Assembly: GCF_000406105.1 (NCBI RefSeq)
Contig: NZ_CM001974.1
Coordinates: 406,186-470,185 of the forward strand
Direction: 5' to 3'
Length of the DNA: 64,000 nucleotides
Origin: Dickeya chrysanthemi NCPPB 402
GTDB taxonomy: Bacteria; Pseudomonadota; Gammaproteobacteria; Enterobacterales; Enterobacteriaceae
The notes below the pieces were generated by a model that worked only from the letters and a program-made list of their open reading frames with translations, had not been told where the DNA came from and searched no databases. The position numbers and the translations under genes are program-made. Below are positions 1,180 to 48,400 of the stretch, piece after piece; positions within the stretch are counted from its first letter, which is position 1, and each line of letters begins with the position of its first letter.

Positions 1180-1202
1180 TTTCCGCTCCATTCTCTCCCG
1201 TC

Positions 1203-1231
1203 AGGCGCCTCACGGCGCCTTTTCTTTTTCC
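1203..1231 (+). terminator. Rho-independent terminator of metA
   Basis: A perfect 7-base-pair stem (aggcgcc, loop tcac, ggcgcct) is followed by a T-rich run. It lies 24 bases after the metA stop. Confidence 0.85.
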
Positions 1232-1277
1232 TGTTGCTATTGCGGCGACATCTCCCATTCTGACCTTTGCTAATGCA

Positions 1278-1292
1278 TGGAATGCATTTCTC
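1278..1292. promoter_or_regulatory. Candidate IclR operator upstream of aceB
   Basis: The 15 bases TGGAATGCATTTCTC match 11 of 15 positions of the E. coli IclR box TGGAAATCATTTCCA as I remember it. A weaker match lies at 1353-1367. The site is about 190 bases before aceB. A similar element precedes iclR itself at 7109-7123, which supports a shared regulator. The intergenic region 1232-1482 is otherwise A+T-rich and carries the aceB promoter, which I did not pin down. Confidence 0.35.
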
Positions 1293-1482
1293 TATTTCAA
1301 ATAACTTTAATTTCAAACTAATCATATGGTTGTTTTTAATTTAAATTAAAAATGGAAATTGTTTTTGATTTTTAATTTTGTTGGATTAGGCTTAGTGCTG
1401 TTGGCTGAAAAACGCTCGGATTAAGTTCACAGATTGAGCAGTCGATGAGACGAAGGTAGCGGGGCAAAAAAGGAACGACGAC

Positions 1483-3081: not shown

Positions 3082-3104
3082 TCCTGTTTAAAAAAGGAAT
3101 CGCT

Positions 3105-4412: not shown

Positions 4413-4431
4413 CGCGGGGTATCCGCACTAT

Positions 4432-4456
4432 CGCGGCCAGCCTGGTGCTGGCCGCG
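4432..4456 (+). other. Intercistronic hairpin between aceA and aceK
   Basis: A perfect 10-base-pair stem (cgcggccagc, loop ctggt, gctggccgcg) sits 20 bases after the aceA stop and 35 bases before aceK. No T-run follows, so it is not a classic terminator. In E. coli the aceA-aceK gap also holds a stem-loop linked to the much lower level of AceK than of AceA. A similar role here, stabilising aceBA mRNA or partly stopping transcription, is inferred. Confidence 0.65.
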
Positions 4457-4490
4457 TGTCGTCATGTCGATGGCCTGAGAGGAGCGTTGG

Positions 4491-6248: not shown

Positions 6249-6254
6249 CGCCGC

Positions 6255-7088
6255 TTAGCGCGCGCCGCCGTACTGGTAGGTGATCTCTTTCGCCGCCTTA
6301 ATCACCAGCGCCCCCAGTTCGGTGATGCGATTATCGGTGATGCGGGATATCGGCCCGGAGATGGAGATGGCGGCAAACGCTTCGTGGTGCTCGTCCAGAA
6401 TGCAGGCGGCGACACAACGCAAGCCTAGTGCGTGCTCCTCATCGTCCAGCGCGTAACCCTGACGGCGAATCGCCGTCAGATTTTCTTTCAGCGTTTGGGC
6501 ATTCAAGGTCTGTGGGGTGTAGCTGTGCAGCCCTTTGCGGTGCAACAACTGGGTGACTTTCTCGTCCGGCAGCATGGCGAGGAACGCTTTGCCGGCGCCG
6601 GATGCGTGCATCGGCAGTTTGCCGCCGATCGGCGCGGACATGCGCATCAGCGCGGTACACTGCACCTGATCGATGATGATGGCCTGATAGTCGGTTTGGT
6701 CCAGCACGGCCAGATTCACCGTTTCACCGGAACTCTCCATCAACTGGCGCAGCATCGGGTGTACCAGGCTGAGCAGATTGCGGCTTTGCAGAAAGCTGCT
6801 GCCGACAATAAACGCATGGGTGCCGATGGTCCATAATCCCAAATCACCGACCTGACGTACAAAGCCTTGTTGTTGCATGGTGGTCAACAGCCGGTGAGTG
6901 GTGGAGTTGGGCAAACCCGCCTGCTGGGCCAGGTCGGTCAGCGCGATGCTGCCGTTGGCTTTAGCGATGTATTCCAGCAAGGTCAGCCCGCGGGTCAGCG
7001 ACTGCACCTGTCCGGCCGGTTGCGCAGGGCTGGCGGCGGCAGCGCGAGGTTTTTTACCACGTTTGGCGGGTTCGGGGGGCGTCATCAT
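6255..7088 (-). CDS. iclR: Acetate operon repressor IclR
   Basis: Transcription factor that represses aceBAK and its own gene. The 277-residue protein has a winged helix-turn-helix at about residues 30-90 (LTRGLTLLEYIAKANGSIAL followed by LPNSTTHRLL) and the IclR effector-binding domain in the C-terminal half, with the expected DEEHALGLRCVAA segment. It is transcribed towards aceK, as in E. coli. Two tandem ATG codons lie at the start, and the upstream one has an aaggaaa ribosome site. The start region faces metH. Confidence 0.96.
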   Translation of the reverse strand: MMTPPEPAKRGKKPRAAAASPAQPAGQVQSLTRGLTLLEYIAKANGSIALTDLAQQAGLPNSTTHRLLTTMQQQGFVRQVGDLGLWTIGTHAFIVGSSFLQSRNLLSLVHPMLRQLMESSGETVNLAVLDQTDYQAIIIDQVQCTALMRMSAPIGGKLPMHASGAGKAFLAMLPDEKVTQLLHRKGLHSYTPQTLNAQTLKENLTAIRRQGYALDDEEHALGLRCVAACILDEHHEAFAAISISGPISRITDNRITELGALVIKAAKEITYQYGGAR

Positions 7089-7108
7089 CGGTTTCCTTTT
7101 TCATATCA

Positions 7109-7123
7109 TGGAATCGATTTTCG
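7109..7123. promoter_or_regulatory. Candidate IclR autoregulatory operator
   Basis: TGGAATCGATTTTCG lies about 20 bases before the iclR start. It shares TGGAAT--ATTT with the candidate site before aceB. IclR is known to repress its own gene in E. coli. Binding here is inferred only from the sequence. Confidence 0.35.
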
Positions 7124-7246
7124 TTTTTTTAGCGCAGAATGCAACCGTCTTATCAGGCTGTTTTATCAACCGTGAGCTGCGCTGGCGCAACGTACTCTTG
7201 TGCTAGGATAAGAATTCGCACAGACGAGGGTGATAACGAGAATAAG

Positions 7247-32782: not shown

Positions 32783-32858
<76 letters not shown>

Positions 32859-32919: not shown

Positions 32920-33197
32920 GTTTCTGCCGTTCGTTATAGCGAATAACATCAGCCGATTTTTGCTCACTTTTCTCACATAGCTTCATGCTGTTTGTCCCAC
33001 GTAATAGGTGCGCCAACTCCTTCCTGAAATGCTCTGGCGACAGGCCAGACTGCAGTAAATCTGAGATATGATTATAAATCATAAAAATAATTAATTAATT
33101 CCAAATAAGAATATACAAAACGCTTGTTCGTTTTAATGTCTATATATAGTCTTTAAAAGAACGGATGTGGCTTATTTTGTCCAAAATGGAGGATGAT
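32920..33197. other. Junction region between tRNA-Gly and the chlorothreonine-type operon
   Basis: These bases hold no gene I can support. The last 130 bases are strongly A+T-rich and carry the promoter of the following operon. A 10-base palindrome ctatatatag (33140-33149) lies about 50 bases before the first gene and could be an operator or part of a -10 region. A candidate -35 TTGTTC lies at 33124. No integrase or copy of the tRNA 3' end is seen here. Confidence 0.4.
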
Positions 33198-34733
33198 GTG
33201 AACACTGATACACCCTCATCCATACCGTCAAAAACGTTGCTGGGATGCTTTTTAGACGTAGCGGACAGATACCCGGAACGTATTGCGGTCAAAGATGGCG
33301 AAACCAGTACGACTTATCATGTATTGAAGGCGAAGGTTCTCTCTATTGCTGGCGCATTACGAAACCAGGGGGTTGAACCTGGTCATCGCGTGGCGGTGGA
33401 ATTGACGCCTTCTGTAGATCTGATCACTGCGTTGCTTGCCGTACAATATGCTGGTGCGGCTTATGTCCCTCTGGATAAAAAAGCGCCTCTGGAAAGAAAT
33501 CGGTTGATTGTGGATGACGCTAAACCGGTTTTGACGATTTCCGATAGCGACATGTCTTCTCTTTATTGCATCGATCACGTATCGATACAGACGCTGAAAT
33601 CGGCGGCGGCCTCAACCGACTTTGGTGATCACTCCCGGCTTGATAATACGGCTTATATTATCTACACCTCGGGTACGACAGGAAAACCTAAGGGGGTGCC
33701 GATTACCCATGGCAACCTGGCGGCTTTATTTTGCGTTACTGAGAGCTTATTTCATTTCAGTAATCAAGATGCAACGCTGCTCTACCACTCTTACGCGTTT
33801 GACTTTTCAGTATGGGAAATATGGTCTGTGTTGGGGTATGGCGGGAAATTGGTGATACCCGATGAAGAAATAAAAATAGTTCCTCATGCCCTTGCCGAAC
33901 TTATTAAAGAAGAAAATATTACCTTACTTAATCAGACACCCACTGCATTCTCAGTGAATGCGGAAAAGCTTTGTCAATTTCAACCGGAGGAACTATCGCT
34001 ACGTTGTATTATTTTTGGCGGTGAGCGATTGAATTTCCAGACACTAAAAGTTTGGAGCAAACACTTCGGATTACATTCACCCATACTGGTTAATATGTAT
34101 GGTATTACGGAGACGACGGTTCATGCCAGCTGGCATATTGTCAATGCGGCAGACTTGATGAATCCGGAATCAAACATCGGCTGGGTTTTACCTCATTTTC
34201 ATTACATGATTCGCCCACTCGGTAATGAGCTCTCGATTGAGAACGGGGGAGAGCTTCTTTTATCCGGTCCACAGGTGACGATCGGTTATCTGAATACAGA
34301 AAACGATAATGGCAATAAATTTATATGGCTGGAAACAGAGGGCGTATCCCAAAGGTATTACTGTTCCGGCGATGTCGTAAAACACAACCCCAAAGGGGAG
34401 CTCATCTATCTCGGGCGATGTGATGAGCAGGTGAAAATTAATGGGTTCAGAATCGAAACGGGTGAGATCGAATCTGTCCTGGCACAGCTGGAAGAAATTG
34501 ACGATATCTCTGTGCTGGCGGCAAAGACGGATATACATGGTTATCACCTGATCGGTTTCTTCACGTCTTCATCGGCGCAGGATGAAGAGGAGATAAAAGA
34601 GAAGTTGAAGTCTCAGGCCCGGCTCGCTTTACCGGTATATATGCGCCCTCTGCGCTACAGGCGAATCGATGTCATGCCGAAAACGGTAAATGGAAAGATT
34701 GATAAGAAATTAATTCTGCATTCAATGGAGTAA
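33198..34733 (+). CDS. Stand-alone threonine-type adenylation protein
   Basis: Activates an amino acid as its adenylate and loads it on a carrier protein; cytoplasmic. The protein is about 511 residues. NRPS adenylation motifs are present in order: YIIYTSGTTGKPKG (153-166), FDFSVWE (201-207), NMYGITETT (299-307), YYCSGDVV (387-394), GRCDEQVKINGFRIETGEIE (406-425), and NGKIDKK (498-504). The ten specificity positions read D202 F203 W206 N245 I272 G274 M300 V308 H309 K500, which is the known threonine code. The GTG at 33198 has a ggagg site; ATG 33165 or 33186 are alternatives. No condensation domain is attached. It heads a six-gene operon. Confidence 0.92.
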   Translation: MNTDTPSSIPSKTLLGCFLDVADRYPERIAVKDGETSTTYHVLKAKVLSIAGALRNQGVEPGHRVAVELTPSVDLITALLAVQYAGAAYVPLDKKAPLERNRLIVDDAKPVLTISDSDMSSLYCIDHVSIQTLKSAAASTDFGDHSRLDNTAYIIYTSGTTGKPKGVPITHGNLAALFCVTESLFHFSNQDATLLYHSYAFDFSVWEIWSVLGYGGKLVIPDEEIKIVPHALAELIKEENITLLNQTPTAFSVNAEKLCQFQPEELSLRCIIFGGERLNFQTLKVWSKHFGLHSPILVNMYGITETTVHASWHIVNAADLMNPESNIGWVLPHFHYMIRPLGNELSIENGGELLLSGPQVTIGYLNTENDNGNKFIWLETEGVSQRYYCSGDVVKHNPKGELIYLGRCDEQVKINGFRIETGEIESVLAQLEEIDDISVLAAKTDIHGYHLIGFFTSSSAQDEEEIKEKLKSQARLALPVYMRPLRYRRIDVMPKTVNGKIDKKLILHSME

Positions 34734-34736
34734 ACC

Positions 34737-34988
34737 ATGACTGTCAATGACACTTTAAATCTGAAAGAAGATATCCATAAAGAAAAGGCGCTGGCGCAAT
34801 ATTTGCTGTGGCTGGAGGATATTTTAGAGCAGCCAGTTGAACCTGATGATAATTTCCTTGATGCGGGTGGCCATTCGATGATAGCCATTTCATTAAATGA
34901 AAAAGTAAAAAAAGAGTTTGGACTGACGCTATCCATGGAGCGGTTATACAACACAACATTAAGAAACGTTTTCTTCTCAGCGAAATAA
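34737..34988 (+). CDS. Stand-alone aminoacyl carrier protein
   Basis: Carrier that holds the activated amino acid as a thioester on a phosphopantetheine arm. The 83-residue protein has the signature DNFLDAGGHSMIAISL, with Ser47 as the attachment residue. The gene begins 3 bases after the adenylation gene. In syringomycin synthesis the equivalent domains are joined in one protein (SyrB1); here they are split. A phosphopantetheinyl transferase is required but is not in this window. Confidence 0.92.
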   Translation: MTVNDTLNLKEDIHKEKALAQYLLWLEDILEQPVEPDDNFLDAGGHSMIAISLNEKVKKEFGLTLSMERLYNTTLRNVFFSAK

Positions 34989-35011
34989 CTCTCTAAAAGA
35001 GGATGTGTAAA

Positions 35012-35959
35012 ATGAGTAAGGCACTGCACCTGACAGAAGAACAATTAGATAGCTTTCATCGCAATGGTTATATAGGCCCGTTAACGATTTATTCACCAGA
35101 TGAAATGAGCGATATCTGGAATAAAGTACGTCGACAATTGCCGGATCGAAGCAATGCCGCTTACCCGGCGGATTCCTACGGCGCGGCCACTAACATTTCT
35201 AATTATGACCGTCACCTGGATATCGAGTTGCTGAGTAAACACATAACTAATCCACGTATCGTTGCACCGGTTGCCGATATTCTGGGTCAAGATGTGTTGT
35301 GCTGGCGTACAGAGTTTTTCCCGAAATATCCGGGTGATGAAGGGACTGACTGGCATCAGGCCGACACCTTCGCGAATGCCAGCGGTAAGCCTCAGATTCT
35401 ATGGCCAGGCGAAACAGAAGATCGCTTTGGCAAAGGGACGCTGACCGTCTGGACGGCATTTACCGATGCCACCATTGAAAATGGCTGTCTTGAAATTATG
35501 CCCGGCACGCACCTCAAAATGAACTACGACGAAACGAAAGCAATGGCATATCAGACCGAGATTATTAACAGCCGGGCGAAAGAGGGGAAAAAACGGGGAT
35601 TCTTCGGGTATGACTACCGTGAACTACAGATAGAGCCAGACTGGAAACCAGACGAAAGCAAAGCATTTCCATTGGTCATGAAGGCCGGTCAATGTGTGAT
35701 CTTTTGGTCCACGCTGATGCACGCCTCTTATCCCAACTCGTCTAAAAAAGATTTCCGTATGGGATTCGCCACGCGCTATGCGCCAAGCATCGTCGATATC
35801 TACCCCGATACCGACGTTGTGGAGGAATACGGCGGTAGTATTCCGCTTGATAAGTTTGGGTGCGTGATTGTTTCCGGCCAGAGCCTCAACGCGAGAAACC
35901 GTATCGCGTCGAACAATCTGCTTGGTCAACCTTTCACACCCCTGGCTGAAAGCCGGTAA
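35012..35959 (+). CDS. SyrB2-like non-haem iron / 2-oxoglutarate halogenase
   Basis: Predicted to chlorinate the side chain of an amino acid bound to the carrier protein, using Fe(II), chloride, oxygen and 2-oxoglutarate. The 315 residues align end to end with SyrB2 (310) as remembered, including [20 protein letters not shown] and [13 protein letters not shown]. Iron ligands are H115 and H237; A117 replaces the Asp/Glu of hydroxylases, leaving room for chloride. R255 fits the 2-oxoglutarate-binding Arg. ATG 35012 was chosen over 35003 because the aagagg site is correctly spaced. Most likely substrate: threonine on the neighbouring carrier. Confidence 0.93.
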
Positions 35960-35972
35960 ACAGGAGCCTGAA

Positions 35973-36647
35973 ATGATGCAAATTCAACGCTATCTGGATG
36001 ATACCTACTGTTTTTCTGCTACCAGCGAGGTCATCGCTACCGGCACTGACTCGTATGGGTCATGGCTGGCTCTGCGGGAGAACATCTTTCACCCACAAGG
36101 CGGGGGGCAACCCGCCGATACCGGGTGGATTAATGATATTCCCGTTAGCATCCGTAAAGATGAGTCTGGTTTGGTGGTCGTCTATCCCCAATCTTCACTC
36201 GAGTTTGACGTGGAAACGCGGTTGCAGTGTCGGTTGTCGGCACCGGAACGTATGCGACATGCCGCATTGCATACCGCCGGGCATTTGCTGAATTGGGAAA
36301 TGCGCCGGTATGGATGGCGGGCGACGTCCGGGCATCATTTCCCGGGAGAATCTCGAGTTGTCTTTTCTCCGATGGGGTCCAGCGCGGTATTGGTGGATCG
36401 TTTGCCGCTCCAGGATATAGCTGCGGGCATCAGTTTACGTTTGCTTGCGGGGGGAGAGGTCAAAACATGGCGGGAAGGAGAGAACCGCTACTCCCTGATA
36501 CCCGATACGGAAGCGATGCCCTGTGCGGGGACGCATGTGAATGACATCAGTCAAATTATTAATTTTTCAATAAAATCAGCCAAATTTAAGAAAGATCAAC
36601 TGCGAATCAGCTATGACGCAGAACATTCGGCCCAGAGGAATGATTAA
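35973..36647 (+). CDS. AlaX-type trans-editing aminoacyl-tRNA deacylase
   Basis: Free-standing relative of the editing domain of alanyl- and threonyl-tRNA synthetases, which hydrolyses wrongly charged tRNA. The 224-residue protein has the family segment FHPQGGGQPADTG (39-51) and the zinc/catalytic motifs HTAGH (100-104) and CAGTH (184-188). It lies inside the halogenase operon, 13 bases after the halogenase, and its stop overlaps the next start (TAATG). In this setting the likely job is self-protection: removal of the chlorinated amino acid from tRNA. That target is inferred; ordinary AlaX proteins clear Ser or Gly from tRNA-Ala. Confidence 0.88.
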   Translation: MMQIQRYLDDTYCFSATSEVIATGTDSYGSWLALRENIFHPQGGGQPADTGWINDIPVSIRKDESGLVVVYPQSSLEFDVETRLQCRLSAPERMRHAALHTAGHLLNWEMRRYGWRATSGHHFPGESRVVFSPMGSSAVLVDRLPLQDIAAGISLRLLAGGEVKTWREGENRYSLIPDTEAMPCAGTHVNDISQIINFSIKSAKFKKDQLRISYDAEHSAQRND

Positions 36648-37567
36648 TGTCTAATGAGACGACGCTGTACCTTTCTCGTTCACGGCTGTATCTGGTGGAT
36701 TTAGGATTACTGACCGTCGCCTTGTCGTGGGGGGCGAGTTATTCATTGATGCAGATGATCATCCATGCCGGCGTGGCGGTTCCTCTGTTTCTGATGTTGC
36801 GTTTTGCGTTGGCGGTTCCCTTTATGTTCCTGGGCACCCGAATTCGCCTGCGTGATTTTACACGTGGCGAAGTCCTGAATGGGGTAATTTTCGGTGCGTT
36901 GCTCTATGCCATTTTGACGCTCGAAACCCTGGGCGTGAAATACACAACAGCGGCGAATGCCGGCTTTCTGATCGCGCTATCCGTGGTGTTGGTGCCTTTT
37001 TATGAGCGTGTTCTGGGCAAACGGCGGCAGAGCAAACTCATCTATGTAACCTGTGTTCTTTCACTGGCCGGCGGCGGTTTGATCAGTTTTTCTCATAGCG
37101 GGCCCATAGGCTTTAATTTTGGCGACTGGCTGGTGCTGCTGGCGGCATTAATTCGCGGATTCCAAATCTTCATGTTTGGCCAGCAGACAGCGGGTAAATC
37201 CTATTCGCTTATCAATATTACACTGGTCGAGTTGCTCACGGTTGCTGCGCTTGGCCTGCTATTTATTTGCGTTTCCGACCCGGCATCCATGCAGGCTATT
37301 CCGGCTATTCCCCTTGATGTGTGGGGCTATATTCTCTTTTTAAGCTTGTTGGCGACGGCATTTGCCTTTCTGATGCAACTTTATGCGGCAAAACTGACCA
37401 GCCCGACACGGGTTGGGCTCATTTTATCGATGGAACCCGCTTTTGCCGCCGGTTTTGCCGTCACGCTCATGGGCGAGGTGATTGGCATTTGGCAGGGCAT
37501 CGGTGGAGCGATCATTGTCTCGGCGGCATTGGCTGGGCGTATGCTTGAGGGGAAGCGCTATGAATGA
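36647..37567 (+). CDS. EamA/DMT-family exporter
   Basis: Predicted inner-membrane exporter of 306 residues with about ten transmembrane helices in two EamA repeats (about 15-140 and 160-300). The family includes RhtA, which exports threonine and homoserine in E. coli. Its start overlaps the stop of the deacylase gene by one base and its end overlaps the thioesterase start by eight, so it is translated as part of the operon. Export of the chlorinated amino acid is a sensible inference. Confidence 0.88.
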   Translation: MSNETTLYLSRSRLYLVDLGLLTVALSWGASYSLMQMIIHAGVAVPLFLMLRFALAVPFMFLGTRIRLRDFTRGEVLNGVIFGALLYAILTLETLGVKYTTAANAGFLIALSVVLVPFYERVLGKRRQSKLIYVTCVLSLAGGGLISFSHSGPIGFNFGDWLVLLAALIRGFQIFMFGQQTAGKSYSLINITLVELLTVAALGLLFICVSDPASMQAIPAIPLDVWGYILFLSLLATAFAFLMQLYAAKLTSPTRVGLILSMEPAFAAGFAVTLMGEVIGIWQGIGGAIIVSAALAGRMLEGKRYE

Positions 37568-38270
37568 GCCCCCGTCTCACATGGTATTGTTTCATCATGC
37601 CGGTGGTAACGCCTCATCGATGCAGACGATAGCCCGGCGCTTTTCCTCTGCCTTTTCTACCATGCTGATGGAGATGCCGGGGCGTGGCCGACGCCGACAG
37701 GAAGCACTGATGTATGATGTGAGCGCCATCGTAGACGACTTTGCCGCGCGTATCCCTGAGCAGGGCCGGCTTATTCTGGTTGGGCATAGTCTGGGGGCTT
37801 ATATGGCCTATCTGCTGGCCGGGCATTGTCGACGTATAACACCAGAAAGAGACATCGTACTGGTGGTGATGTCTAACGATCCCATCCATTGCCGCAGACG
37901 CTTCCCGTGGCGGGAGTTGAACCCGGAGTCACAACAAGCGATCTGGCATTTTGCAACCCGACTGGGAGAGCTGCCTGATTGGTTAACGCAGGATGATGTA
38001 CTACGCCAACAGTTTATTCAGGTGCTGGCCGCCGATTTAGCTGTTGCCAATTCTATTCGTACCGAAGATACGGAGCCGCTGAACGGCGTGCCGGTATTAT
38101 TGCTCTATGGAGAAGATGACCCGTATCTGCCCGATGCTCCCGCCCGCTGGTGCGAATGTACCAGCGGTATATACCGAATGGAGAGCGTGCCGGGTGGGCA
38201 TTTTATTCAATCCGGGTCAGATGTCGGCGACATTATTTTCCGCTTTATTTCAGATGTCGACATGGAATAA
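37560..38270 (+). CDS. Type II-like thioesterase (alpha/beta hydrolase)
   Basis: Predicted to hydrolyse the thioester on the carrier protein. The 236-residue protein has the motif GHSLGA with Ser77, an acidic pair in YGEDDP (186-187) and the His in GGHF (214), which form the usual triad. It also has the FHHAGGNA segment typical of type II thioesterases. Syringomycin uses SyrC, a Cys-type transferase, at this step; here a Ser nucleophile suggests release as a free amino acid. A proofreading role is the alternative. Last gene of the operon. Confidence 0.88.
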   Translation: MNEPPSHMVLFHHAGGNASSMQTIARRFSSAFSTMLMEMPGRGRRRQEALMYDVSAIVDDFAARIPEQGRLILVGHSLGAYMAYLLAGHCRRITPERDIVLVVMSNDPIHCRRRFPWRELNPESQQAIWHFATRLGELPDWLTQDDVLRQQFIQVLAADLAVANSIRTEDTEPLNGVPVLLLYGEDDPYLPDAPARWCECTSGIYRMESVPGGHFIQSGSDVGDIIFRFISDVDME

Positions 38271-38304
38271 TAATGTATTAATGAATGGGTGTGCTATTGC
38301 ACAG

Positions 38305-38330
38305 CGGGGCTTCTGTGCCCCGTTTGATTA
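38305..38330. terminator. Terminator between the halogenase operon and its regulator
   Basis: A 6-base-pair G+C stem (cggggc / gccccg, loop ttctgt) is followed by TTTGATT. It separates two convergent genes. The stem is short, so efficiency is uncertain. Confidence 0.5.
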
Positions 38331-38927
38331 AACCTGAATGGAATTGGACATCACGACTGTCGCACTGACGGCATGGTCAGTACAGATATATGAGTGAAAG
38401 ATACTGCCAGAGAAACAATAAAAATCACCGGTCTTAAGTACGATGCTTTCGTCATCGGCAAGTTTAAGCGTGAGTGAACCAGAATGCACCAGAATATGCT
38501 CATGGGTTCCCGATGCGTGCGGAGGGCTATTGATAATAACGCCAGGATTCATTTGCAAATGCCATATTTCTGAAATATTACCCAAACCGATGCGAAATTT
38601 CATCTTTTGGGAATACTCTCCTTGCATAGGCGTATTTCTTTCCATGTAAGGATAGGTGCTGGTGTTAACTGCGAGTAAGTCGCTTAAAGGAACACGTAAA
38701 GCACCGGCAATGGCGTCTAAGGTATCGACACGTGGGTTTGAGTTACCCGATTCCAGTTTGGATAATGCGGCTTTCGACACGCCTGATAACCTGGAAAGAT
38801 CATTAAGCGAGATATTTCTGGTCATTCTTAATTGTTTGATTTTATTTCCAATATTAATGGATGTTGTCTCTGCTTCATGGTGGGGGTGGGAGGTGTTCAT
38901 CAACAAACCAAATACGTTATCAGACAA
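38328..38927 (-). CDS. XRE-cupin transcriptional regulator
   Basis: Predicted DNA-binding regulator of 199 residues. An XRE-type helix-turn-helix covers about residues 27-82 (GNKIKQLRMTRNISLNDLSR, then GVSKAALSKLESG). A cupin domain covers about 125-195 (HEHILVHSGSLTLKL). Such proteins often sense amino acids or sulfur compounds and control exporters. It is convergent with the halogenase operon and divergent from the LysE exporter, so it probably controls one or both. Its target site is unknown. Confidence 0.88.
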   Translation of the reverse strand: MSDNVFGLLMNTSHPHHEAETTSINIGNKIKQLRMTRNISLNDLSRLSGVSKAALSKLESGNSNPRVDTLDAIAGALRVPLSDLLAVNTSTYPYMERNTPMQGEYSQKMKFRIGLGNISEIWHLQMNPGVIINSPPHASGTHEHILVHSGSLTLKLADDESIVLKTGDFYCFSGSIFHSYICTDHAVSATVVMSNSIQV

Positions 38928-39054
38928 GGAACCCAGTTTAGCAGATCCCGATAAAAAGGTGACGGTTTTGTTGAGACGGCGAATTAGGTTGCGATGCCGA
39001 TCTCAGAATAATACTCGCTCAGCGGTGATGACGCTTCATTGAAGGAATATCAGT

Positions 39055-39654
39055 ATGAGTTATGAATACCTGAAAGTGATCTTGTATATCGCATTATTTT
39101 TGATTATACCCGGGCCGACTAACACATTACTTCTTTGTGCCAGTTATACCCAAGGAGTTATTAAAAGCGCCAGACTTGTTCTATCCGAGTGGGCCGGATA
39201 CTTATTGGCGGTAACAGCATGGGGGTTATTATTTACCTATCTGGTACGGTACGGCGGTTTAATGCTGGGTGTGATTAAACTGCTTTCGGCTTTTTATGTC
39301 ATTTATCTGGCGGTGAAAGTCTGGCGGTTCTCATTTCATCAAATAAATGGAACTATAACATCGGGTACGGTGTTTATCACGACATTGCTCAATCCTAAGG
39401 CATTTTTATTTGCCGACTCTATTATTCCACCCTCTGCCTTCATTTATCAGGCGAGCTATATTCACGCGATGGTGAGCTTGTTATTAGCCTTATTCCCTGT
39501 TTCTTTTATATGGCTCTATTTCGGCACGCTGATGCGTCTTAGCAATACATCACAGCGTAGGGTAAAACCGATGCTGTTCTACCGCGGTGCGTCGCTCATC
39601 ATCTCGCTTTTTGCCGCGTCGATGTTTTATCAATCGGCGTCAATGATATTGTAA
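39055..39654 (+). CDS. LysE/RhtB-family amino-acid exporter
   Basis: Predicted inner-membrane exporter of 199 residues with about six transmembrane helices. The N-terminal family motif is seen as PGPTNTLLLCASYTQG (residues 19-34), and the middle motif in LLNPKAFLF. The LysE/RhtB family exports threonine, homoserine, lysine and others. It is divergent from the XRE-cupin regulator with 127 bases between. Together with the EamA protein it gives this small region two exporters of families known to move threonine. Confidence 0.88.
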   Translation: MSYEYLKVILYIALFLIIPGPTNTLLLCASYTQGVIKSARLVLSEWAGYLLAVTAWGLLFTYLVRYGGLMLGVIKLLSAFYVIYLAVKVWRFSFHQINGTITSGTVFITTLLNPKAFLFADSIIPPSAFIYQASYIHAMVSLLLALFPVSFIWLYFGTLMRLSNTSQRRVKPMLFYRGASLIISLFAASMFYQSASMIL

Positions 39655-39958
39655 TGAAACATGCGAGTTGTCTGAACGCGGCACGGGAACCGTTATTGCC
39701 GTGCCAGCCCGTCACTGTGTCATCTTCAATCACTTGCCGGTTGATGTGCCATCATTGGGCGTTGTTGTCACTGAGCGCTGTTATCACTGACCATGACCAC
39801 AAATTCCGCAATCGGGTACTGGACTTACATCGCCTTTCCGCCGTTGCTGGTCTACTATAATTGCAAAAATAAGCATAGTTAATCGGTGGAAATTCAGATG
39901 GTTGGTCTTTATACCTTCTGATTTTGCACACACCTTCGCGCAATCAAGGCAGGTTAGT
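39655..39958. other. Intergenic region before the secretion locus
   Basis: These 304 bases separate the LysE exporter from the next locus. A 7-base-pair hairpin ggcacgg/ccgtgcc (39680-39705) may end the exporter transcript. A TATAAT hexamer at 39856-39861 is a possible -10 box for the next operon, without a clear -35 box. A 68-codon open frame at 39654 has no ribosome site and no family match, so I do not call it. Confidence 0.4.
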
Positions 39959-40762
39959 GTGAACAATTTCAATCACTCCGTTTTCTGTCGGGCTCTGGGG
40001 CTGCTGACGTTTTGCGTCTGGGTTTATCACGCACAGGCGCAGGCTGACGACCCGTTATTGATTAATCCGACTCATCCTGGTCAGTTGACGGCATCGTCGG
40101 ACAATCAGGCGCGTGGGATATTGGTAGCGGTGGAGCAGGCGACGATTTCCAGTGATCTGGCCGGGCGTATCGTAGAAATGCCGTTCCGGGAAGGGGAGTC
40201 GTTCAAAAAAGGTGACCTGTTGGCGCGTTTTGACTGCAGCATCTATCAGGCGCAGTTAGCGGCTTCGCAGGCGGCGATGCGGGCAGCGCAGGCGGAGCTG
40301 GATCAGAATCAGCAACTGGCGCAGTTGAAATCGGTGGGTAAGCATGCCGTGTCTTTGTCTGCCGCGCGTCTGGCGCAGGCACAGGCGGAAAGCCAGGTCT
40401 ATCAGATTCAGGTTAACCGTTGCCGTATTGCGGCGCCGTTTGACGGGCAGGTGGTCAGGCGGCGTGCACAAGCGTATGAAAGCGTAGCGCCAGGGGCGCC
40501 GGTGCTGGATATCGTCAACAATCGCCATCTGGAAATTAACCTACTGGTGCCATCCCGTTGGTTGACCATACTCAAGTCCGGTCTGGTCTTCACGTTTACG
40601 CCGGATGAAACCGGCACGCCGTTACAAGCCCGTGTTTCCCGTCTGGGGGCGCGTATCGACGAAAGCAGCCAGACCCTCGGTCTGACCGGTGTTATCGAAA
40701 CCAAAGACGCCGCGCTGATGGCCGGTATGAGCGGTACGGCCCATTTCCCGGAGAAACCGTGA
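39959..40762 (+). CDS. HlyD-like periplasmic adaptor protein
   Basis: Membrane-fusion-type adaptor of 267 residues, predicted to be periplasmic. The GTG at 39959 has an aggcagg site and gives a signal peptide ending AQAQA near residue 29. A barrel-sandwich (lipoyl-like) half is seen in GRIVEMPFREGESFKKGDLLARFD, split by an alpha-helical hairpin (about 95-150), then the second half RIAAPFDGQVVRRRAQAYES. It has the RND-adaptor build but no pump gene is nearby. It overlaps the next gene by four bases, so three adaptor genes are coupled. Confidence 0.88.
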   Translation: MNNFNHSVFCRALGLLTFCVWVYHAQAQADDPLLINPTHPGQLTASSDNQARGILVAVEQATISSDLAGRIVEMPFREGESFKKGDLLARFDCSIYQAQLAASQAAMRAAQAELDQNQQLAQLKSVGKHAVSLSAARLAQAQAESQVYQIQVNRCRIAAPFDGQVVRRRAQAYESVAPGAPVLDIVNNRHLEINLLVPSRWLTILKSGLVFTFTPDETGTPLQARVSRLGARIDESSQTLGLTGVIETKDAALMAGMSGTAHFPEKP

Positions 40763-42078
40763 GTACTACGCCCCCTGTTGCCGGCGAGCGTATCTTCGCC
40801 CGTTTTTTAGACATTGAGCGTCAGGCGCGTTCGGCAGATACCGCCGAAGCACTGGCGTATTGCATCGTCAACGACAGCCAGACGCTGTTCGGTTTCCGTC
40901 ATGCCGCCTTGGTGATTAATGGGACGGTACGGGCGGTGACCGGCGTCACCCAGCCGGCTCCCCATGCTCCTTTTGTGGCGTTTATCGAACGGGCCTGTGT
41001 GCAGTTGCAGCGTGCTCAACAGCATGAGCAGTGCGCGGTGGTGGATGCGGCATGGCTGGATCAACAAAGCCGCAATGACTGGCTAGCGTTATCGGCGCCT
41101 GAAGTGCTGTGGGCACCGTTGAAAGATAGGCAAGGACGTCTGTTCGGCGGCATCTGGTATGCCCGTGAACAGCCCTGGCAGCCCGCCGAGCAATTACTGG
41201 TGGAACAACTGGCGCATACGTTCAGCCATGCCTGGCTGGCGCTGGAGCCGCAACCGGTCTGGCGGCGCACGCGCCGACGCTGGAAACTGGCTGTCCCGCT
41301 GCTGGTGGTCGTTGGGTGCCTGTTTATTCCGGTGCGACAGTCGGTGCTGGCGCCGGCCGAGGTGATTCCGCTCAACGGGCGTGTAGTGGCGGCACCGTTG
41401 GACGGCGTGATTCAGGCGTTTGCCGTTCAGCCGAATCAGGGGGTACGCAAGGGAGACCTGCTGGTGCGTATCGACGATACCACGCTGAAAGCCCAGGCGG
41501 ATGTGGCTGAAAGGTCGTTGAACGTGGCGGAGGCGGAGTACCGCGCCAGCTCGCAACGTGCCTTTCAGGATGCCGATTCCAAGGCCAGGCTGGATTTTCT
41601 TGCCGCGCAGGTGGCGCAGAAGCGTGCCGAGCGCGATTATGCCAACGCTTTGCTGAGCCGTACCGAGATTCGGGCGGAGCGGGATGGCATTGCGGTGTTT
41701 GCCGATGCCGAACGCTGGACCGGAAAACCGGTCCGTACCGGCGAACGACTGATGGATCTGGCTGATCCGGCTTCCGTGTCGCTGCGTATCGAGCTGGATG
41801 TCGGCGATGCGATTCGGCTGGAGCCGGATGCGCCGATCACCTTGTTTCTTGATAGCGACCCGATAACGCCGCATGGCGCGCTGCTGGATCGTATTGCGTA
41901 TGAATCGGAACAAACCCCGGCGGGCAATCTGGCCTATCGGCTGGATGCCCGTTTTAACGGCGAACCGCCGCGCATCGGGCTGCGTGGTACGGCGAAAATC
42001 TCGGGTGAATACGTGCCGCTGGCGGTGTATCTGTTCCGACGGCCGCTCGCCGTGTTACGTCAGTCGGTTGGATTATGA
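40759..42078 (+). CDS. GAF-like / HlyD-like membrane adaptor
   Basis: Predicted inner-membrane protein of 439 residues. The N-terminal 160 residues look like a GAF-type cytoplasmic domain. One transmembrane helix follows near residue 180 (LAVPLLVVVGCLFIPV). The periplasmic part is an HlyD-like barrel-sandwich split by a coiled coil (PLDGVIQAFAVQPNQGVRKG to residue 310). It starts at GTG overlapping the previous stop and overlaps the next gene by four bases. A cytoplasmic sensor joined to an adaptor is unusual. Confidence 0.82.
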   Translation: MSTTPPVAGERIFARFLDIERQARSADTAEALAYCIVNDSQTLFGFRHAALVINGTVRAVTGVTQPAPHAPFVAFIERACVQLQRAQQHEQCAVVDAAWLDQQSRNDWLALSAPEVLWAPLKDRQGRLFGGIWYAREQPWQPAEQLLVEQLAHTFSHAWLALEPQPVWRRTRRRWKLAVPLLVVVGCLFIPVRQSVLAPAEVIPLNGRVVAAPLDGVIQAFAVQPNQGVRKGDLLVRIDDTTLKAQADVAERSLNVAEAEYRASSQRAFQDADSKARLDFLAAQVAQKRAERDYANALLSRTEIRAERDGIAVFADAERWTGKPVRTGERLMDLADPASVSLRIELDVGDAIRLEPDAPITLFLDSDPITPHGALLDRIAYESEQTPAGNLAYRLDARFNGEPPRIGLRGTAKISGEYVPLAVYLFRRPLAVLRQSVGL

Positions 42079-44198
42079 CCAATGGCGGAACGGGGCATTT
42101 TTTGCCCGCACTGAGAACGGATCTGCAACTGGTGGAGTCGGCGACCGGCCTCGACGGTGCGCCGCAATGGTTGCTGGCCGACCCGGTTACCGGACGCTAT
42201 TTCACGCTGACGCCTTCGGCGATTCGCCTGTTACGCCACTGGTCGCTGCGTCATCCGCAATCGGTGCTGGAGGCGGCTAACCGTGAGCCGGGTCTGCCGT
42301 TGCAGGGCCGCGAGTTGGAGCAGTTATTGCGGTTTCTGCGCAATCACGATCTGATAGCCGCCAGCGACCCGGTGCAACGACAAGGGTATGCCATCAAGGC
42401 GGCGGCATTGCGTGTCAGCCTGTGGAAAACCCTGCTACACCAGTATCTGTTTTTTCGCATTCCGCTATGGCGACCGGACCCATTGCTCAACCGTTGCTGG
42501 CCCTGGCTGCAACGTTACGGCCTGCTATTCCTACGGCTGGCGTTACCGTTAATACTGCTGTTGGGGGGCTTTCTGGTGAGCCGTGACTGGGTGCGCTATA
42601 CCCACTCGTTTCCTCACCTGTTCAGCCTGCAAGGAATGGCGGCTTTCGGCATCGCACTGGTCTTCGCCAAATTTATCCACGAACTGGGGCATGCTTTTAT
42701 GGCTAAGCGTGCCGGTTGCCGGGTGCAGACCATGGGCGTGGCGTTTATCGTGCTGTTCCCGTTGTTTTATACCGATGTCAGCGATGCCTGGAAACTGAAG
42801 GATCAGCGCGCCCGGTTATTGGTAAGCGCCGGCGGTATTCTGGCGGAACTGATGCTGGCTTGCGTTGCGTTACTGGCCTGGGCGCTGTTGCCTGATGGCC
42901 CGGTGCGTACCGCCGCCTTCATGCTCTCCAGCGCCACCTGGATAACGACGCTGGTGGTTAACCTCAACCCTCTGATGCGTTTTGACGGGTACTTTTTACT
43001 GAGCGATTTCTGGCGGGTGGAAAACCTGCAGGAACGCGCGTATGCCCTGTGCCGATGGCGGCTGCGCGAGGTGTTGTTTGGTTATGGTCATCCGGCACCG
43101 CAGACCTGGTCGCCGCCGATGCGGCGCAAGCTGTTGATATGGGGTTATGCCTCATGGGTATGGCGCTTTTTTCTGTTTTTCGGTATTGCGCTGATGGTGT
43201 ATCACTTTTTCATTAAGGTGGTCGGCATTGTGCTGATGTCGGTGGAAATTGGCTGGTTCATCGCGTTGCCGATCGTTAAGGAGGCCCGTATCTGGTGGTC
43301 CATGCGTAAAATTGCTCATCCCGTCAGCCTGTTGCGTTCGGGGCTGATGTTGGCGGCGGTACTGGTGTTGCTGCTGTTTCCCTGGCGCGGCAGCATCCGT
43401 ATTCCCGCCGTACTGGAAGCGGAAAACGTCAGTGCGCTGTATGCGCCGATTCCTGCACAGGTAAAAGCGTTATACGTCGCCGACGGCCAGCAGGTGCAAG
43501 CCGGTGAGAAACTGCTGGAGCTGACATCGTCCGATTTGGACTACCGCATCAATATCGAACGTCAGCAGATTGCCGTTTTGCAACAGCAACGGCAGCGGGG
43601 AGCCGGGCGTCAGGAAACCGCCGGCGAAACCCAGGTACTTGACCGTCAACTGGCGGAATCGTTGGCTCGCTATCGGGGGCTGGATGCGCAACGCCAGCGG
43701 TTGTCTCTCACCGCGCCGCAAGCGGGGCAGGTGAGAGATATGGCGCGGGATATGACGGAAGGTCGCTGGCTGACCACCGACATGCCCTTGTTACGCGTTG
43801 TTGAGCAAGGCGCCGGGAAAGTGCAGGGGTATTTGCCCGAAGACTCCCTGACGCGCGCAAAAGCGGGCATGACGGGCGCTTTTATCGCCGATGATCCGGC
43901 TTATCCCCGTCTGGCGGTACAACTGAAAGACATTGCGCCCACCGGCACCGCCTGGTTACAGCAGGAAATGCTGGCGTCCGATCGCCACGGCCCGATCGCC
44001 GTGCGTCGCGACAGGGATCATAACCCTCAGCCCGTCCAGGCGCAGTACCGTGTGCGTTTCGCGGTTCAGCAGGGGCAGTTCCCGCCGCCGCAACAGCCGT
44101 TACGAGGCAGCGTGATGCTGGAAGGCGAAACGGAATCCATTCTTGGCGCGGTATGGCGTCGAATTGCCGCGCTCGGGATCCGGGAAAGCGGATTTTGA
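42075..44198 (+). CDS. M50 site-2-protease-like membrane protein fused to HlyD-like adaptor
   Basis: Predicted inner-membrane protein of 707 residues. Residues about 15-100 resemble a PqqD-like winged-helix domain (DPVTGRYFTLTPSA). The membrane part (about 150-440) carries the zinc protease motif HELGH (202-206) and the partner NPLMRFDGYF (298-307), the third ligand being D304. The C-terminal 260 residues are an HlyD-like adaptor with a coiled coil. The family occurs in peptide and adhesin export loci. Whether it cleaves a substrate or serves only as a scaffold is not known. Neighbours are two adaptors upstream and a tail-collar protein downstream. Confidence 0.85.
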   Translation: MTNGGTGHFLPALRTDLQLVESATGLDGAPQWLLADPVTGRYFTLTPSAIRLLRHWSLRHPQSVLEAANREPGLPLQGRELEQLLRFLRNHDLIAASDPVQRQGYAIKAAALRVSLWKTLLHQYLFFRIPLWRPDPLLNRCWPWLQRYGLLFLRLALPLILLLGGFLVSRDWVRYTHSFPHLFSLQGMAAFGIALVFAKFIHELGHAFMAKRAGCRVQTMGVAFIVLFPLFYTDVSDAWKLKDQRARLLVSAGGILAELMLACVALLAWALLPDGPVRTAAFMLSSATWITTLVVNLNPLMRFDGYFLLSDFWRVENLQERAYALCRWRLREVLFGYGHPAPQTWSPPMRRKLLIWGYASWVWRFFLFFGIALMVYHFFIKVVGIVLMSVEIGWFIALPIVKEARIWWSMRKIAHPVSLLRSGLMLAAVLVLLLFPWRGSIRIPAVLEAENVSALYAPIPAQVKALYVADGQQVQAGEKLLELTSSDLDYRINIERQQIAVLQQQRQRGAGRQETAGETQVLDRQLAESLARYRGLDAQRQRLSLTAPQAGQVRDMARDMTEGRWLTTDMPLLRVVEQGAGKVQGYLPEDSLTRAKAGMTGAFIADDPAYPRLAVQLKDIAPTGTAWLQQEMLASDRHGPIAVRRDRDHNPQPVQAQYRVRFAVQQGQFPPPQQPLRGSVMLEGETESILGAVWRRIAALGIRESGF

Positions 44199-44475
44199 TG
44201 TGGCTAATGCGATTTTTTAATGACGATAAAACGCGTCATATAATTAATTTTACTGAATTGTTGTTTGTGTGATGGTTCGGGAAATAATTTTATTCAGCCG
44301 GCGGACAATCTCTCCTGCTTCAACTATGTTTTTATTGTGATTGATAAAATATATTTTGTTTCAATTTGAAACTATTTCATATTCTATGTATTTCTCCAGT
44401 ATTTTTGGGGTCATACCAATAATCATCCAATAAATCGCATAGATAACACTTTTACGATGGTGAGGAGAGATATCC

Positions 44476-45294
44476 ATGATGCATGCTAAGAAGGTTTTTA
44501 CCCAAACAGCGATAACTGTAGCCATGGTTGGAGGTATTTTATGGCCTCAGATTGCTTCAGCCTGTGGTTCGGAAGAATACATTGGCTCTGTCTGTTATAC
44601 CGCAGCGCAATTTTGTCCTTCCGGTTTTGTTCCGGCGGATGGACGTGCACTGACTATTCAGCAAAATAGCGCGCTTTATTCCTTATTAAGCACCACCTAC
44701 GGTGGTGATGGCAAAACAACGTTTAACGTGCCTGACTTACGTGGCCGTTTTCCTCTTGGTCAAGGTTCTGGTAGCGCCGACTCCAATAATATAGGGGCAA
44801 AAGCCGGTAAGGCCTCCGTGACATTATCGAACAACCAGATTGCGCCGCATATCCATCCAGCCACCTTTACACCCGGTGGGTCGTCAGTTGATGTTACGGT
44901 TCCGGCACAGCCGAGCACCTTAAGTGTGGCAGCCTCACTACCGCTTGTCACGACCGCCAGCGGTACGGCGACGACAACCCCCGTACCGACAGGAACCAGT
45001 AACTATCTTGGTGCCCTGACGGCCAAAGCGATTAATGGCTTATCAAGTTATAACGTCAGTTTTACCGGATTGTTCTCACAGACGAAACCGAGTCCGGTAA
45101 CGGCATCAGCCCCTGTCGACACCACCGTGTCGGGTTCGGCGGGAACCGCTGCTTTCACGTTTAAAGTGCCGACCGGCGGGTCTGTTAGCGTGCAGCCTAA
45201 TCTTCCTGCGGCAGCGCCTGTGGATATTCGGCCGCAGTCACTGACCTTGTTGCCGTGTATTGCTGTATTGGGGCTCTATCCACCAAGAGATTGA
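44476..45294 (+). CDS. Secreted phage-tail-collar-domain protein
   Basis: Predicted exported protein of 272 residues. A signal peptide (about 1-29, ending QIASA) precedes a phage tail collar domain (about 33-100: CPSGFVPADGRALTIQQNSA, then DLRGRFPLGQGSG). The rest is Ser/Thr/Pro-rich and low in complexity. It resembles microcystin-dependent and tail-fibre-related proteins, but no phage genes are nearby. It has a gaggaga ribosome site. It lies between the export proteins and the large adhesin-like protein. A 7-base-pair hairpin follows at 45308-45332. Role unknown. Confidence 0.8.
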   Translation: MMHAKKVFTQTAITVAMVGGILWPQIASACGSEEYIGSVCYTAAQFCPSGFVPADGRALTIQQNSALYSLLSTTYGGDGKTTFNVPDLRGRFPLGQGSGSADSNNIGAKAGKASVTLSNNQIAPHIHPATFTPGGSSVDVTVPAQPSTLSVAASLPLVTTASGTATTTPVPTGTSNYLGALTAKAINGLSSYNVSFTGLFSQTKPSPVTASAPVDTTVSGSAGTAAFTFKVPTGGSVSVQPNLPAAAPVDIRPQSLTLLPCIAVLGLYPPRD

Positions 45295-45428
45295 GTCTGA
45301 TGTATCTGGCAAGGTTGCCTGGCTTCCTTGCCGGATTATTCGAGCCGGTAAAGGTAAACGTGCGTATAAACCGGTTAATCAGGCTGAATGTATCTGTCGT
45401 TAATTACCGATAAACATCGGAGTTTTTT

Positions 45429-48400
45429 ATGCTGTGGCGTCAATTTTTTAAAAAGCAGGCTAGCCAACCAACCGCTGTCGCTGAAACGGCTGTACAACCT
45501 TTTGTCTGCGGTTATGTACTGGAAGCCCGTATGCTGTTTGACGGCGCAATTGCAGCCACAGTCGAGCAGACGACAGAGACACACACTACCGAGACCCAAA
45601 CGGCCAGCACGGCTACCCACACGACGTCGACTGAGACGGCATCCCAGTCTGATAACAGTAGTCATGCAGGCCAGGATGCCAATCAGAGTGTAGCCGCCAA
45701 GAGTACCTCAACTGACGGTAATTCAACTGACAATCACTCAACGACGAGTACCGCTGCAGATAGCAGTGATGTTGCGGCAGCAACCGTACACAAAGAAGCG
45801 GTGTTTATCGATACCTCGGTGGCCGGTTATCAGACGCTGGCTGCCAACGTTCCGGCCGGGATGGAAGTGGTATTGCTGGACGGCAGCAAAGATGGTTTGA
45901 CGCAGATGGCCGTATGGGCGCAAACGCACAGCGGTTACGACGCCATTCATGTACTCAGTCATGGCAGTGAGGGAACCGCACAACTCGGTACCCTGACGCT
46001 AAACAGCGCCACCGCTCTTGCCCGTGCCAATGATCTGGCGACGCTCGGTGCAGCTCTGAATGCCGATGGTGATTTCCTGCTATATGGCTGTGATGTGGCG
46101 CAGGCGTCCGGGCAACAGTTTGCTTCTCTGCTGGCGCAGTTGACCTCGGCAGACGTGGCGGCGTCAACCAATCCTACAGGGGCATCGGCGCTCGGTGGTG
46201 ATTGGGTAACAGAATTTCATACCGGAGAGATTGGCGTACAGGATTTGGTTATCAGCAGTTATACCAATCTGTTGTCGGTGAATAGCACCTCGGTCACGGT
46301 GACCGCGCTTAATGATCCGAACACGGAGTACTATCCCTCGACGTCGGTAGGTAGCAGTGTTGAATTTGATAACAATGGCAATCCTATTGATATCGACCCG
46401 ACGAATAACACGATTACGATTACTTATAGCAGTGGCGCATCGCTGGACACAGGGTTTGACCTGGTGTTTCAGGGCGGCAGTCTCGACCATTTTACCGGTA
46501 TTAACAAGACCTCCAGTTCAGGGGTAAACACCAACGATGTGACCGCTACCGTTTCCGGTAAAACCATCCATATTGATGTAGGGAACGGCGGGTTTACTAA
46601 TGGGACAATAGTCTTCACGTTCACATCGGTCAATGTATCGACGGATACCGCGCCCACGGTTACCGGTAGCGCGACCAATCCTACCTACACGGAAAATGGC
46701 TCTGGCGTTAGCCTGTTTTCAGGTGTGACGGCTTCTACCAATGACAGCGGGCAGACGTTTAGCGGTGTGGTTTTTACCGTCAGCAATGTGGCCGACAGCA
46801 CGGAATACCTGACGATTAACGGGGTGGATGTTGCACTCACCAACGGTAATAGCCTCTCTCTGGGCAGTGGTTACGGCACCGCCAGCGTCAGCAAGAGTGG
46901 CGGCACGGCAACGGTGACCTTATCTGGCGCGGTTATGAGTGACGCCAGTATGAACACGTTATTGTCGGGTATGACTTACCGCAATAGCAGTGAAAACCCT
47001 TCCGTCACCTCGCGCACGGTGACGCTCAGCCAGCTAACCGATAACGGCAGTACCAATAACACGACTTCGCCCAGTCTCAGTAGTCAGGTGACGGTTCATG
47101 CCGTCAATGATGCCCCAACGGATATCTCGCTCACGTCAAGTAGCATCGGGCAATCGTTGGGCAGCAATGGCACGGTCGGCACGCTCAGTGCGACGGATGT
47201 CGATTCCAATTCCTTTACCTATACGCTGGTATCCGGCACCGGCAGCACCGATAACAGTTTGTTTTCGATTACCGGCAACACGCTGAAAGTGAATAACGCC
47301 GCCACGATGACGGCCGGCACCTATTCTGTGCGGATACAGGTGAGTGACGGTACCGACACCTATCAAAAAGTCTTTTCAGTCACGGTAAGTGATGATGTCA
47401 GGCCGACATTTGACGTAGCGCCTGCGGCGACCAACATCAGCGCGAGCGGTTTTGACCTTTCCGCCAGCATAGATGAAGCGGGTACGATTTATTACGTGAT
47501 TGTCGCTGACGGGGCTTCAGCACCCAGCGTGAGTCAGATTATCGCCGGGCAGAATGCCTCAGGGGCGACGGCAGTCGGTTCCGGCAGCCATGTCGTCGGC
47601 AGCGCACCCTATACCTATTCCTTTAGTGTCACGGGATTAAACGGTGCAAGTAGCTACGACGTGTATGTGGTGGCAAAAGACAGCGCCAACAACCAGATAC
47701 TCAGTGCAACCAAGGTCGATGTCACCACATCGTCCAACACTGCCCCCGTATTCAGCAACCTTAACGGCGGCGCGACCTATACCGAAAATGGCAGCGCGGT
47801 GGTGATGGATAATAATGTCACCGTCGCCGATACCGAACTCGGCGCGCTTAACAGCGGACAGGGCAACTATAACGGCGCGTCGATCACCATCGCCCGCAAT
47901 GGTGGGGCCAGCAGTAACGATACCTTCGGCAATAGCGGGCTGTTGGGGTCGCTGACGCAAGGGCAAAACTTCACGTACAACGGTACTGCCGTGGGCAGCG
48001 TCACGACCAATTCGGGCGGTACGCTGACGCTGACGTTTAACAGCAATGCCACCTCGGCGATGGTCGATGCCGTGCTGCAATCCCTGACCTATGCCAACAG
48101 TTCTGACGATCCACCGGCCAGCGCCACCCTGAACTGGACCTTTAACGACGGCTCGCTCAACAGTAGCGGCAGCAATCAGGCGGTACTGAGCATCACGCCG
48201 GTCAATGATGCGCCGGTCATCAGCAACACGTCGGTCAGCAAAACCTTCAATGAGGATAGTGCGCAGACTTTCAGCGCCGCGGATTTCGGTTTCAGCGATG
48301 TGGACAGCGGCGACACGCTGCAATCTATCACCATCGTCACCGCGCCGACCGCCGGCGAGCTGTTTATTGACGCCAACAGCGACGGTGTGCGCGGCGTCGG

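Follow-up and report, generated by a model that had tools for sequence, protein, structure and literature searches.

The window analysed here is a stretch of 64,000 nucleotides from Dickeya chrysanthemi NCPPB 402 (contig NZ_CM001974.1, positions 406,186 to 470,185 of the forward strand), and our subject is a genomic island within it (32943..39660, ends approximate) that carries a six-gene operon at 33198-38270. We consider it probable, from the sequence comparisons given below, that the island is self-contained, with both a pathway to free 4-chloro-L-threonine and protection against it. A sequence-only reading had described six genes running in a single direction, and all six are confirmed on the + strand, in the order adenylation (A) protein, carrier (T) protein, halogenase, AlaX-type deacylase, EamA exporter and thioesterase, with intergenic gaps of 3, 23 and 13 bases followed by overlaps of 1 and 8 bases. 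The span first given holds for these six genes but is slightly short, as the genes for an XRE-cupin regulator (38328..38927, - strand) and a LysE-family exporter (39055..39654, + strand) are also in the island.

In the pathway that we propose, the A protein would adenylate L-threonine and transfer it to the free carrier, the halogenase would chlorinate C4 of threonine on the carrier, and the thioesterase would hydrolyse 4-chlorothreonine from the carrier. The EamA protein would then export the product, as probably would the LysE protein, and residual intracellular 4-chlorothreonine, once charged on tRNA-Thr by threonyl-tRNA synthetase, would be removed by the AlaX-fold protein. The XRE-cupin protein would control the operon through a TTGTTCG...CGAAC repeat.

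The biosynthetic enzymes

The A protein (33198..34733, +) is a stand-alone protein of 511 aa with a Pfam AMP-binding match of 247 bits and the code DFWNIGMVHK, which we take to be the threonine code of adenylation domains, so that its description in the sequence-only reading is borne out. The threonine code is present in 10 of 10 A proteins of the cassettes compared. Among the nearest solved relatives is 5n9w (8e-99), the structure of Thr1 from Streptomyces sp. OH-5093, which produces 4-chlorothreonine, although multidomain chains of non-ribosomal peptide synthetases (NRPS) outscore it in the same list. The gene starts with GTG at 33198, after GGAGG, and there is an in-frame ATG at 33165. The operon promoter is not among the 7 matches of a sigma-70 consensus scan, and shuffled sequences give more (9.6).

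The carrier (34737..34988, +) is likewise free-standing, with 83 aa, a PP-binding match of 38 bits and a phosphopantetheine serine in the site GGHS. The third gene (35012..35959, +, with an alternative ATG start possible at 35003) encodes a SyrB2-type non-haem Fe/2-oxoglutarate halogenase, which scores 440.6 bits against the TIGR01762 chlorinating-enzyme model (cut-off 226.3) and has a WHQA motif, in which the alanine sits at the carboxylate position. Its nearest solved structures are SyrB2 and CytC3, the latter almost as close as the former; CytC3 acts on an amino acid other than threonine. The last gene (37560..38270, +) encodes a serine thioesterase (PF00975, 71 bits) with GHSLG, DDP and GGHF motifs, for which we propose release of the free amino acid, and before it lies the gene for a predicted exporter (36647..37567, +) with an EamA family match of 82 bits, also recognised by NCBIfam. 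Threonine specificity, halogenation and hydrolytic release are thus each supported at the level of motifs and family matches, and free 4-chlorothreonine is the most likely product and the best candidate that we have.

Relationship to known pathways

According to a review, in Streptomyces sp. OH-5093 Thr1 activates L-threonine, Thr2 is a free carrier, Thr3 the halogenase and Thr4 the thioesterase that releases the product (PMC11253843). The D. chrysanthemi operon has the same parts, namely a free-standing threonine A protein, a free carrier, a SyrB2-type non-haem Fe halogenase and a hydrolytic thioesterase with no NRPS, and so resembles the Thr1-Thr4 type of pathway, the difference being that ours is proteobacterial. 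The earlier proposal of a route to free 4-chlorothreonine that needs no NRPS therefore stands for loading, chlorination and release, but not as a new route, since Thr1-Thr4 had already been described. The two are tied together by Streptomyces CB02923, where the A protein is closely related to Thr1 (946.6 bits over 521 residues) and its gene has the same arrangement as ours, together with those for AlaX and EamA; our A protein is 37% identical to it.

The operon can also be compared with the syringomycin genes. SyrB1 is an A-T fusion, and the shuttle SyrC feeds a SyrE module that lacks an A domain (PMC8949500). Threonine activation, chlorination on the carrier and a homologous halogenase are common to both systems. 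However A and T are separate genes in ours, no linked module of the SyrE kind is present, and there is instead a hydrolytic thioesterase.

Free 4-chlorothreonine and the enzymes that make it without an NRPS are thus already known, and it is the deacylase and immunity side that would be the new part. Among the matches listed in a search of titles and abstract starts in the open-licence literature there was no enterobacterial 4-chlorothreonine operon and no AlaX-type chlorothreonyl-tRNA deacylase, and the terms chlorinat-, halogenase and chlorothreonine do not occur in the main text of a large survey of Xenorhabdus and Photorhabdus (PMC9177418).

The AlaX-fold protein and its proposed role in protection

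The fourth gene (35973..36647, +) encodes a protein with no Pfam match at E 0.001. Its predicted structure has the AlaX-M fold and it carries the HxxxH and CxxxH metal motifs, in agreement with the AlaX-type deacylase of the sequence-only reading, and deacylase activity may be expected on these grounds. It shares fold and metal-binding motifs with the AlaX-M enzymes (PDB 9iuw, 2e1b), but has FHPQGGGQ at the GGGQ motif where they have FYPTGGGQ, and it falls far short of the equivalog cut-off for AlaXM (NF040865), the Ser/Gly-tRNA(Ala) editing family, with 56.6 bits against 300. We conclude that the evidence points to chlorothreonyl-tRNA as the target, which the sequence-only reading had left unnamed.

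There is a precedent in fluorothreonine biosynthesis, where the published accounts describe 4-fluorothreonine as an excellent substrate of threonyl-tRNA synthetase (PMC10250548) and its producer as relying on FthB, which deacylates tRNA, and on the exporter FthC (PMC7408626, PMC7162832). The AlaX and EamA pair fits both roles, a halothreonyl-tRNA deacylase and a halothreonine exporter beside the pathway. That FthB could be a relative of AlaX was considered and rejected, as FthB is ProXp-ST1-related according to a review (PMC11295145) and there is a PF04073 gene about 0.5 kb from a gene like that for serine hydroxymethyltransferase (SHMT) on the S. cattleya megaplasmid. The AlaX homologue of S. 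cattleya is about 0.57 Mb from the SHMT-like gene, which we infer to be the fluorothreonine transaldolase. Our protein in turn does not belong to the ProXp/YbaK family (PF04073) of FthB-type deacylases, having no Pfam match and the AlaX-M fold instead, and the AlaX solution would therefore be convergent with FthB.

In a midpoint-rooted tree of 81 AlaX proteins, the 14 operon copies are within one 34-row group (support 99/100). The same group has 10 copies with an XRE-cupin gene and without a halogenase (9 from Providencia and that of Enterobacillus) and 10 with neither halogenase nor XRE-cupin nearby, two Rouxiella among them. There are also 38 actinobacterial copies with a same-strand XRE-cupin neighbour, all outside the group. 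We suggest, as a proposal with about even chances, that this branch is a dedicated chlorothreonyl-tRNA(Thr) deacylase, which is borne on cassettes in producers and stands alone with XRE-cupin as an immunity unit in non-producers such as Providencia and Enterobacillus, sharing the operator.

A stretch of 141 bases near the end of the AlaX gene is matched in 18 of 5,426 E. coli genomes, and nothing in the E. coli collection matches the Kosakonia halogenase gene. In E. coli YJ3, the one such genome opened, an AlaX 3' remnant lies between an insertion sequence element and a convergent XRE-cupin gene (L135 2501-3283).

Distribution and co-inheritance of the cassette

A genome collection was scanned with an alignment of 22 AlaX proteins, and the best 80 of 526 confirmed places were taken. 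A halogenase gene is immediately 5' of AlaX in 13 of these 80 loci, and eight have all six genes of the set proposed in the sequence-only reading in the same order (Prodigiosinella, Xenorhabdus szentirmaii, a Pluralibacter metagenome-assembled genome (MAG), Kosakonia arachidis, Photorhabdus tasmaniensis, Pseudomonas trivialis, P. floridensis and Streptomyces CB02923). Two further sets are near-complete, that of Vibrio ruber being cut by a contig end and that of X. griffiniae having A in two frames, and with eight complete sets and these two it is clear that the gene set is more than a chance association. In X. bovienii T228 (L016 3363-6784), a Telmatospirillum MAG (L062 9311-12460) and Frankia R82 (L044 9377-12447) the halogenase is short or broken and no A or T was found, X. 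bovienii also being without the thioesterase, yet AlaX and EamA are retained, which is what one would expect if protection persists after production is lost.

A complete cassette, XRE-cupin and LysE genes included, is also present on a conjugative Salmonella enterica plasmid, pSA20021456.1 (NZ_CP030220.1, 6190-13320), the sole record among 72,556 plasmid records to cover at least 80% of the cassette stretch. It has a 4'-phosphopantetheinyl transferase gene close after the cassette, the product of which could activate the carrier protein.

The presence of AlaX in all 13 halogenase-AlaX loci is no evidence of association, because these loci were found through AlaX, and loci found through the halogenase are more informative. 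The halogenase was found at E <= 1e-60 in five of 394 genomes sampled from the order, and those with 100 and 77% identity to ours adjoin AlaX. No other genome of the 394 has AlaX at E <= 1e-40, where up to seven candidates were scored in the genomes listed. AlaX is also beside the halogenases of two sister Dickeya genomes and of the Salmonella plasmid (81% identity), so that all five halogenases of 77-100% identity reached from the halogenase side have it as a neighbour. The halogenase of Streptomyces CB02923, 65% identical to ours, adjoins AlaX too, in a locus found via AlaX.

Pairwise identities of the A, halogenase, AlaX, EamA and thioesterase proteins correlate at 0.90-0.98 over 12 cassettes, and five gene pairs were tested by label permutation, the observed value being reached in 0 of 2000 replicates for every pair. 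As the genomes are related to differing degrees, this is to be read as joint descent and not as evidence on function.

The candidate operator

An inverted repeat, TTGTTCG-N26/27-CGAAC, first spotted by eye, is present upstream of many of the operons; in ours the candidate operator is TTGTTCG-N27-AGAAC at 33124..33162 (+). The counts are post hoc, being made on sequences where the repeat had been spotted. The exact form TGTTC-N27..31-GAAC is before A in 8 of 13 cassettes and before AlaX in 4 of 80 loci, none of the four being among loci L086-L094. A second count, for TTGTTCG and GAAC at fixed distance with one mismatch allowed and with the nine loci L086-L094 left out, found the repeat before A in 10 of 13 cassettes and before AlaX in 7 of 13 stand-alone loci, namely that of Enterobacillus and those of 6 of the 9 Providencia. 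As a control, 237 upstream regions from the same loci gave 2 occurrences, one of them at a divergent gene that shares the Enterobacillus site, and the repeat was not present upstream of any of 45 further AlaX genes (44 from actinobacteria and one from Parasutterella). A stricter form has two occurrences in the D. chrysanthemi genome, of which one is at the operon. No shared site was found upstream of the XRE-cupin gene itself. Co-occurrence suggests that the XRE-cupin protein binds the repeat, and as the stand-alone AlaX/XRE-cupin loci have the operator of the producers, non-producers may sense the same compound.

The genomic island

The island has a GC content of 47.5%, against 56.4 and 58.3% on its two sides, and the left edge of its insertion site is a tRNA-Gly(GCC) gene beside orn (32783..32858, +, ARAGORN). 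Nine genomes of the genus were compared, our own (G000) and eight sister genomes. Four of the eight (G001, G004, G007 and G008) have an empty site, with about 32931 joined to about 39828 and some 40-220 bases between. The cassette is in three of the nine, G000, G002 and G003, at the same place in all, and the halogenases of G002 and G003 are 96% and 93% identical to ours. G006 has other sequence at the site, and G005 retains no more than the LysE gene and a remnant of the XRE-cupin gene, next to frames read as transposase genes. Island occupancy, GC and the sister comparison together make the XRE-cupin and LysE genes part of the island. No integrase is among the window frames listed, and no exact repeat of 10-30 bases, of the kind left by site-specific integration, is shared by the tRNA-Gly region and the island's right end. 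G002 has about 6 kb, read as sulfatase, ABC transporter and LysR-type regulator genes, inserted between the tRNA-Gly gene and the cassette (L107 reversed, 937-7139), so the site may accept repeated insertions.

Alternative explanations

The chlorinated threonine might stay on the carrier and be passed to an NRPS or polyketide synthase (PKS) elsewhere, as with SyrB1, SyrB2 and SyrC, the thioesterase merely clearing the carrier. We think this improbable, but some of our observations fit it, and they count against a free product, as do several others in this section against the product or the protection that we propose. The cassette of Streptomyces CB02923 sits among NRPS and PKS genes, the D. 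chrysanthemi genome has both NRPS and PKS genes, with a trans-acyltransferase (trans-AT) PKS whose terminal condensation domain lacks an adenylation partner, and the operon-bearing G003 has 17 condensation-domain matches, so that another consumer is possible there. However the window has no condensation-domain match, its sole adenylation-domain match being the A gene of the operon, and condensation domains were found in the flanks of only one of 13 halogenase-AlaX loci, that of CB02923 (L054), in a local search with two domains of our own genome as queries and flanks of up to 10 kb, shorter at contig ends. Among the nine genomes of the genus, the operon and the condensation domain of the trans-AT PKS coincide in G000 and G002 only, G003 having the operon without this domain and G005 the domain alongside a mere remnant of the island. 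The earlier reading of an operon that works without an NRPS is supported, and with a distribution different from that of the operon the PKS domain is an unlikely consumer. The other NRPS of our genome carries its own adenylation domains, and an operon that encodes both export and tRNA editing is better suited to a free amino acid. A two-module NRPS of the same genome, presumably chrysobactin-like, has its first condensation domain split over two reading frames (L123 6401-15194).

It is just as improbable, in our view, that the cassette makes a different free amino acid, be it otherwise halogenated, further converted, or a hydroxylated threonine. The closeness to CytC3 allows for this, and regiochemistry cannot be read from sequence. 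Halogenases less close to ours, where reached from the halogenase side, lack the AlaX neighbour: three of 54-55% identity in the 394-genome sample are without AlaX within their 3.9-kb loci (L115-L117), plasmid halogenases of Streptomyces and Pseudonocardia at 64% (L128, L129; of 23 plasmid records with a halogenase, 3 were opened) have a carrier and a hydrolase and no AlaX, so that none of the five halogenases inspected in this range, 54-65% identity, has AlaX beside it. The halogenase alone thus does not fix the product. Against a different amino acid are the uniform threonine code of the A proteins, the alanine at the halogenase carboxylate position, and the lack of space for an extra gene among the six, a point that covers the operon interior.

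A somewhat less remote alternative, although still unlikely, is that the AlaX protein is an ordinary Ser/Gly-tRNA(Ala) editor, a chance passenger that gives no protection against the product. Its fold is that of AlaX-M and of the AlaRS editing domain, stand-alone homologues are common, and its substrate could be some other mischarged tRNA. Counting against our main reading, the repeat is missing in 3 of 13 cassettes (X. griffiniae, Photorhabdus and Streptomyces) and in 6 of 13 stand-alone loci (Providencia rettgeri YPR31 and RB151, Providencia vermicola DSM 17385, two Rouxiella and an Enterobacteriaceae MAG). A chance passenger is however not what one would expect to find beside every one of the five closer halogenases and co-inherited with the cassette enzymes, and the low AlaXM score and the repeat common to the operon and the stand-alone AlaX/XRE-cupin loci also speak against an ordinary editor.

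Neighbouring genes and related loci

Downstream of the island, window 39902-50942 encodes two efflux-type adaptor proteins, a 1837-aa tandem-repeat protein and a protein matching the intramembrane metalloprotease family of daptide clusters, and is largely conserved in the sister genomes. In Pseudomonas trivialis there is a second halogenase match about 8 kb past the cassette, at the end of the fetched stretch (L030 20322-20651).

Some actinobacteria have a three-gene unit of a WelO5-like 2-oxoglutarate oxygenase, an AlaX relative and an MFS exporter, near adenylation-domain frames (L130 5727-9032; L078 9065-12053; L082 8782-12221). The WelO5-like neighbours might be taken for halogenases, but they retain HxD and so look like oxygenases, and it is possible that the unit is a parallel system for another toxic amino acid.

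Biological significance

4-Chlorothreonine is a threonine mimic that inactivates SHMT, according to a review (PMC13101137). If our interpretation is correct, its biosynthesis as a free amino acid is extended from one Streptomyces to enterobacteria, Vibrio, Pseudomonas and a conjugative plasmid, and the survival of producers and non-producers in the face of the mimic gains a testable explanation, in which the shared operator may report the compound. Two folds would then have been recruited for the same tRNA clean-up, FthB for fluorothreonine and AlaX for chlorothreonine. The whole would be a bacteriocin-like system, in that the cassettes that make the toxin are mobile and immunity genes occur apart from them, except that the weapon is a small amino acid.

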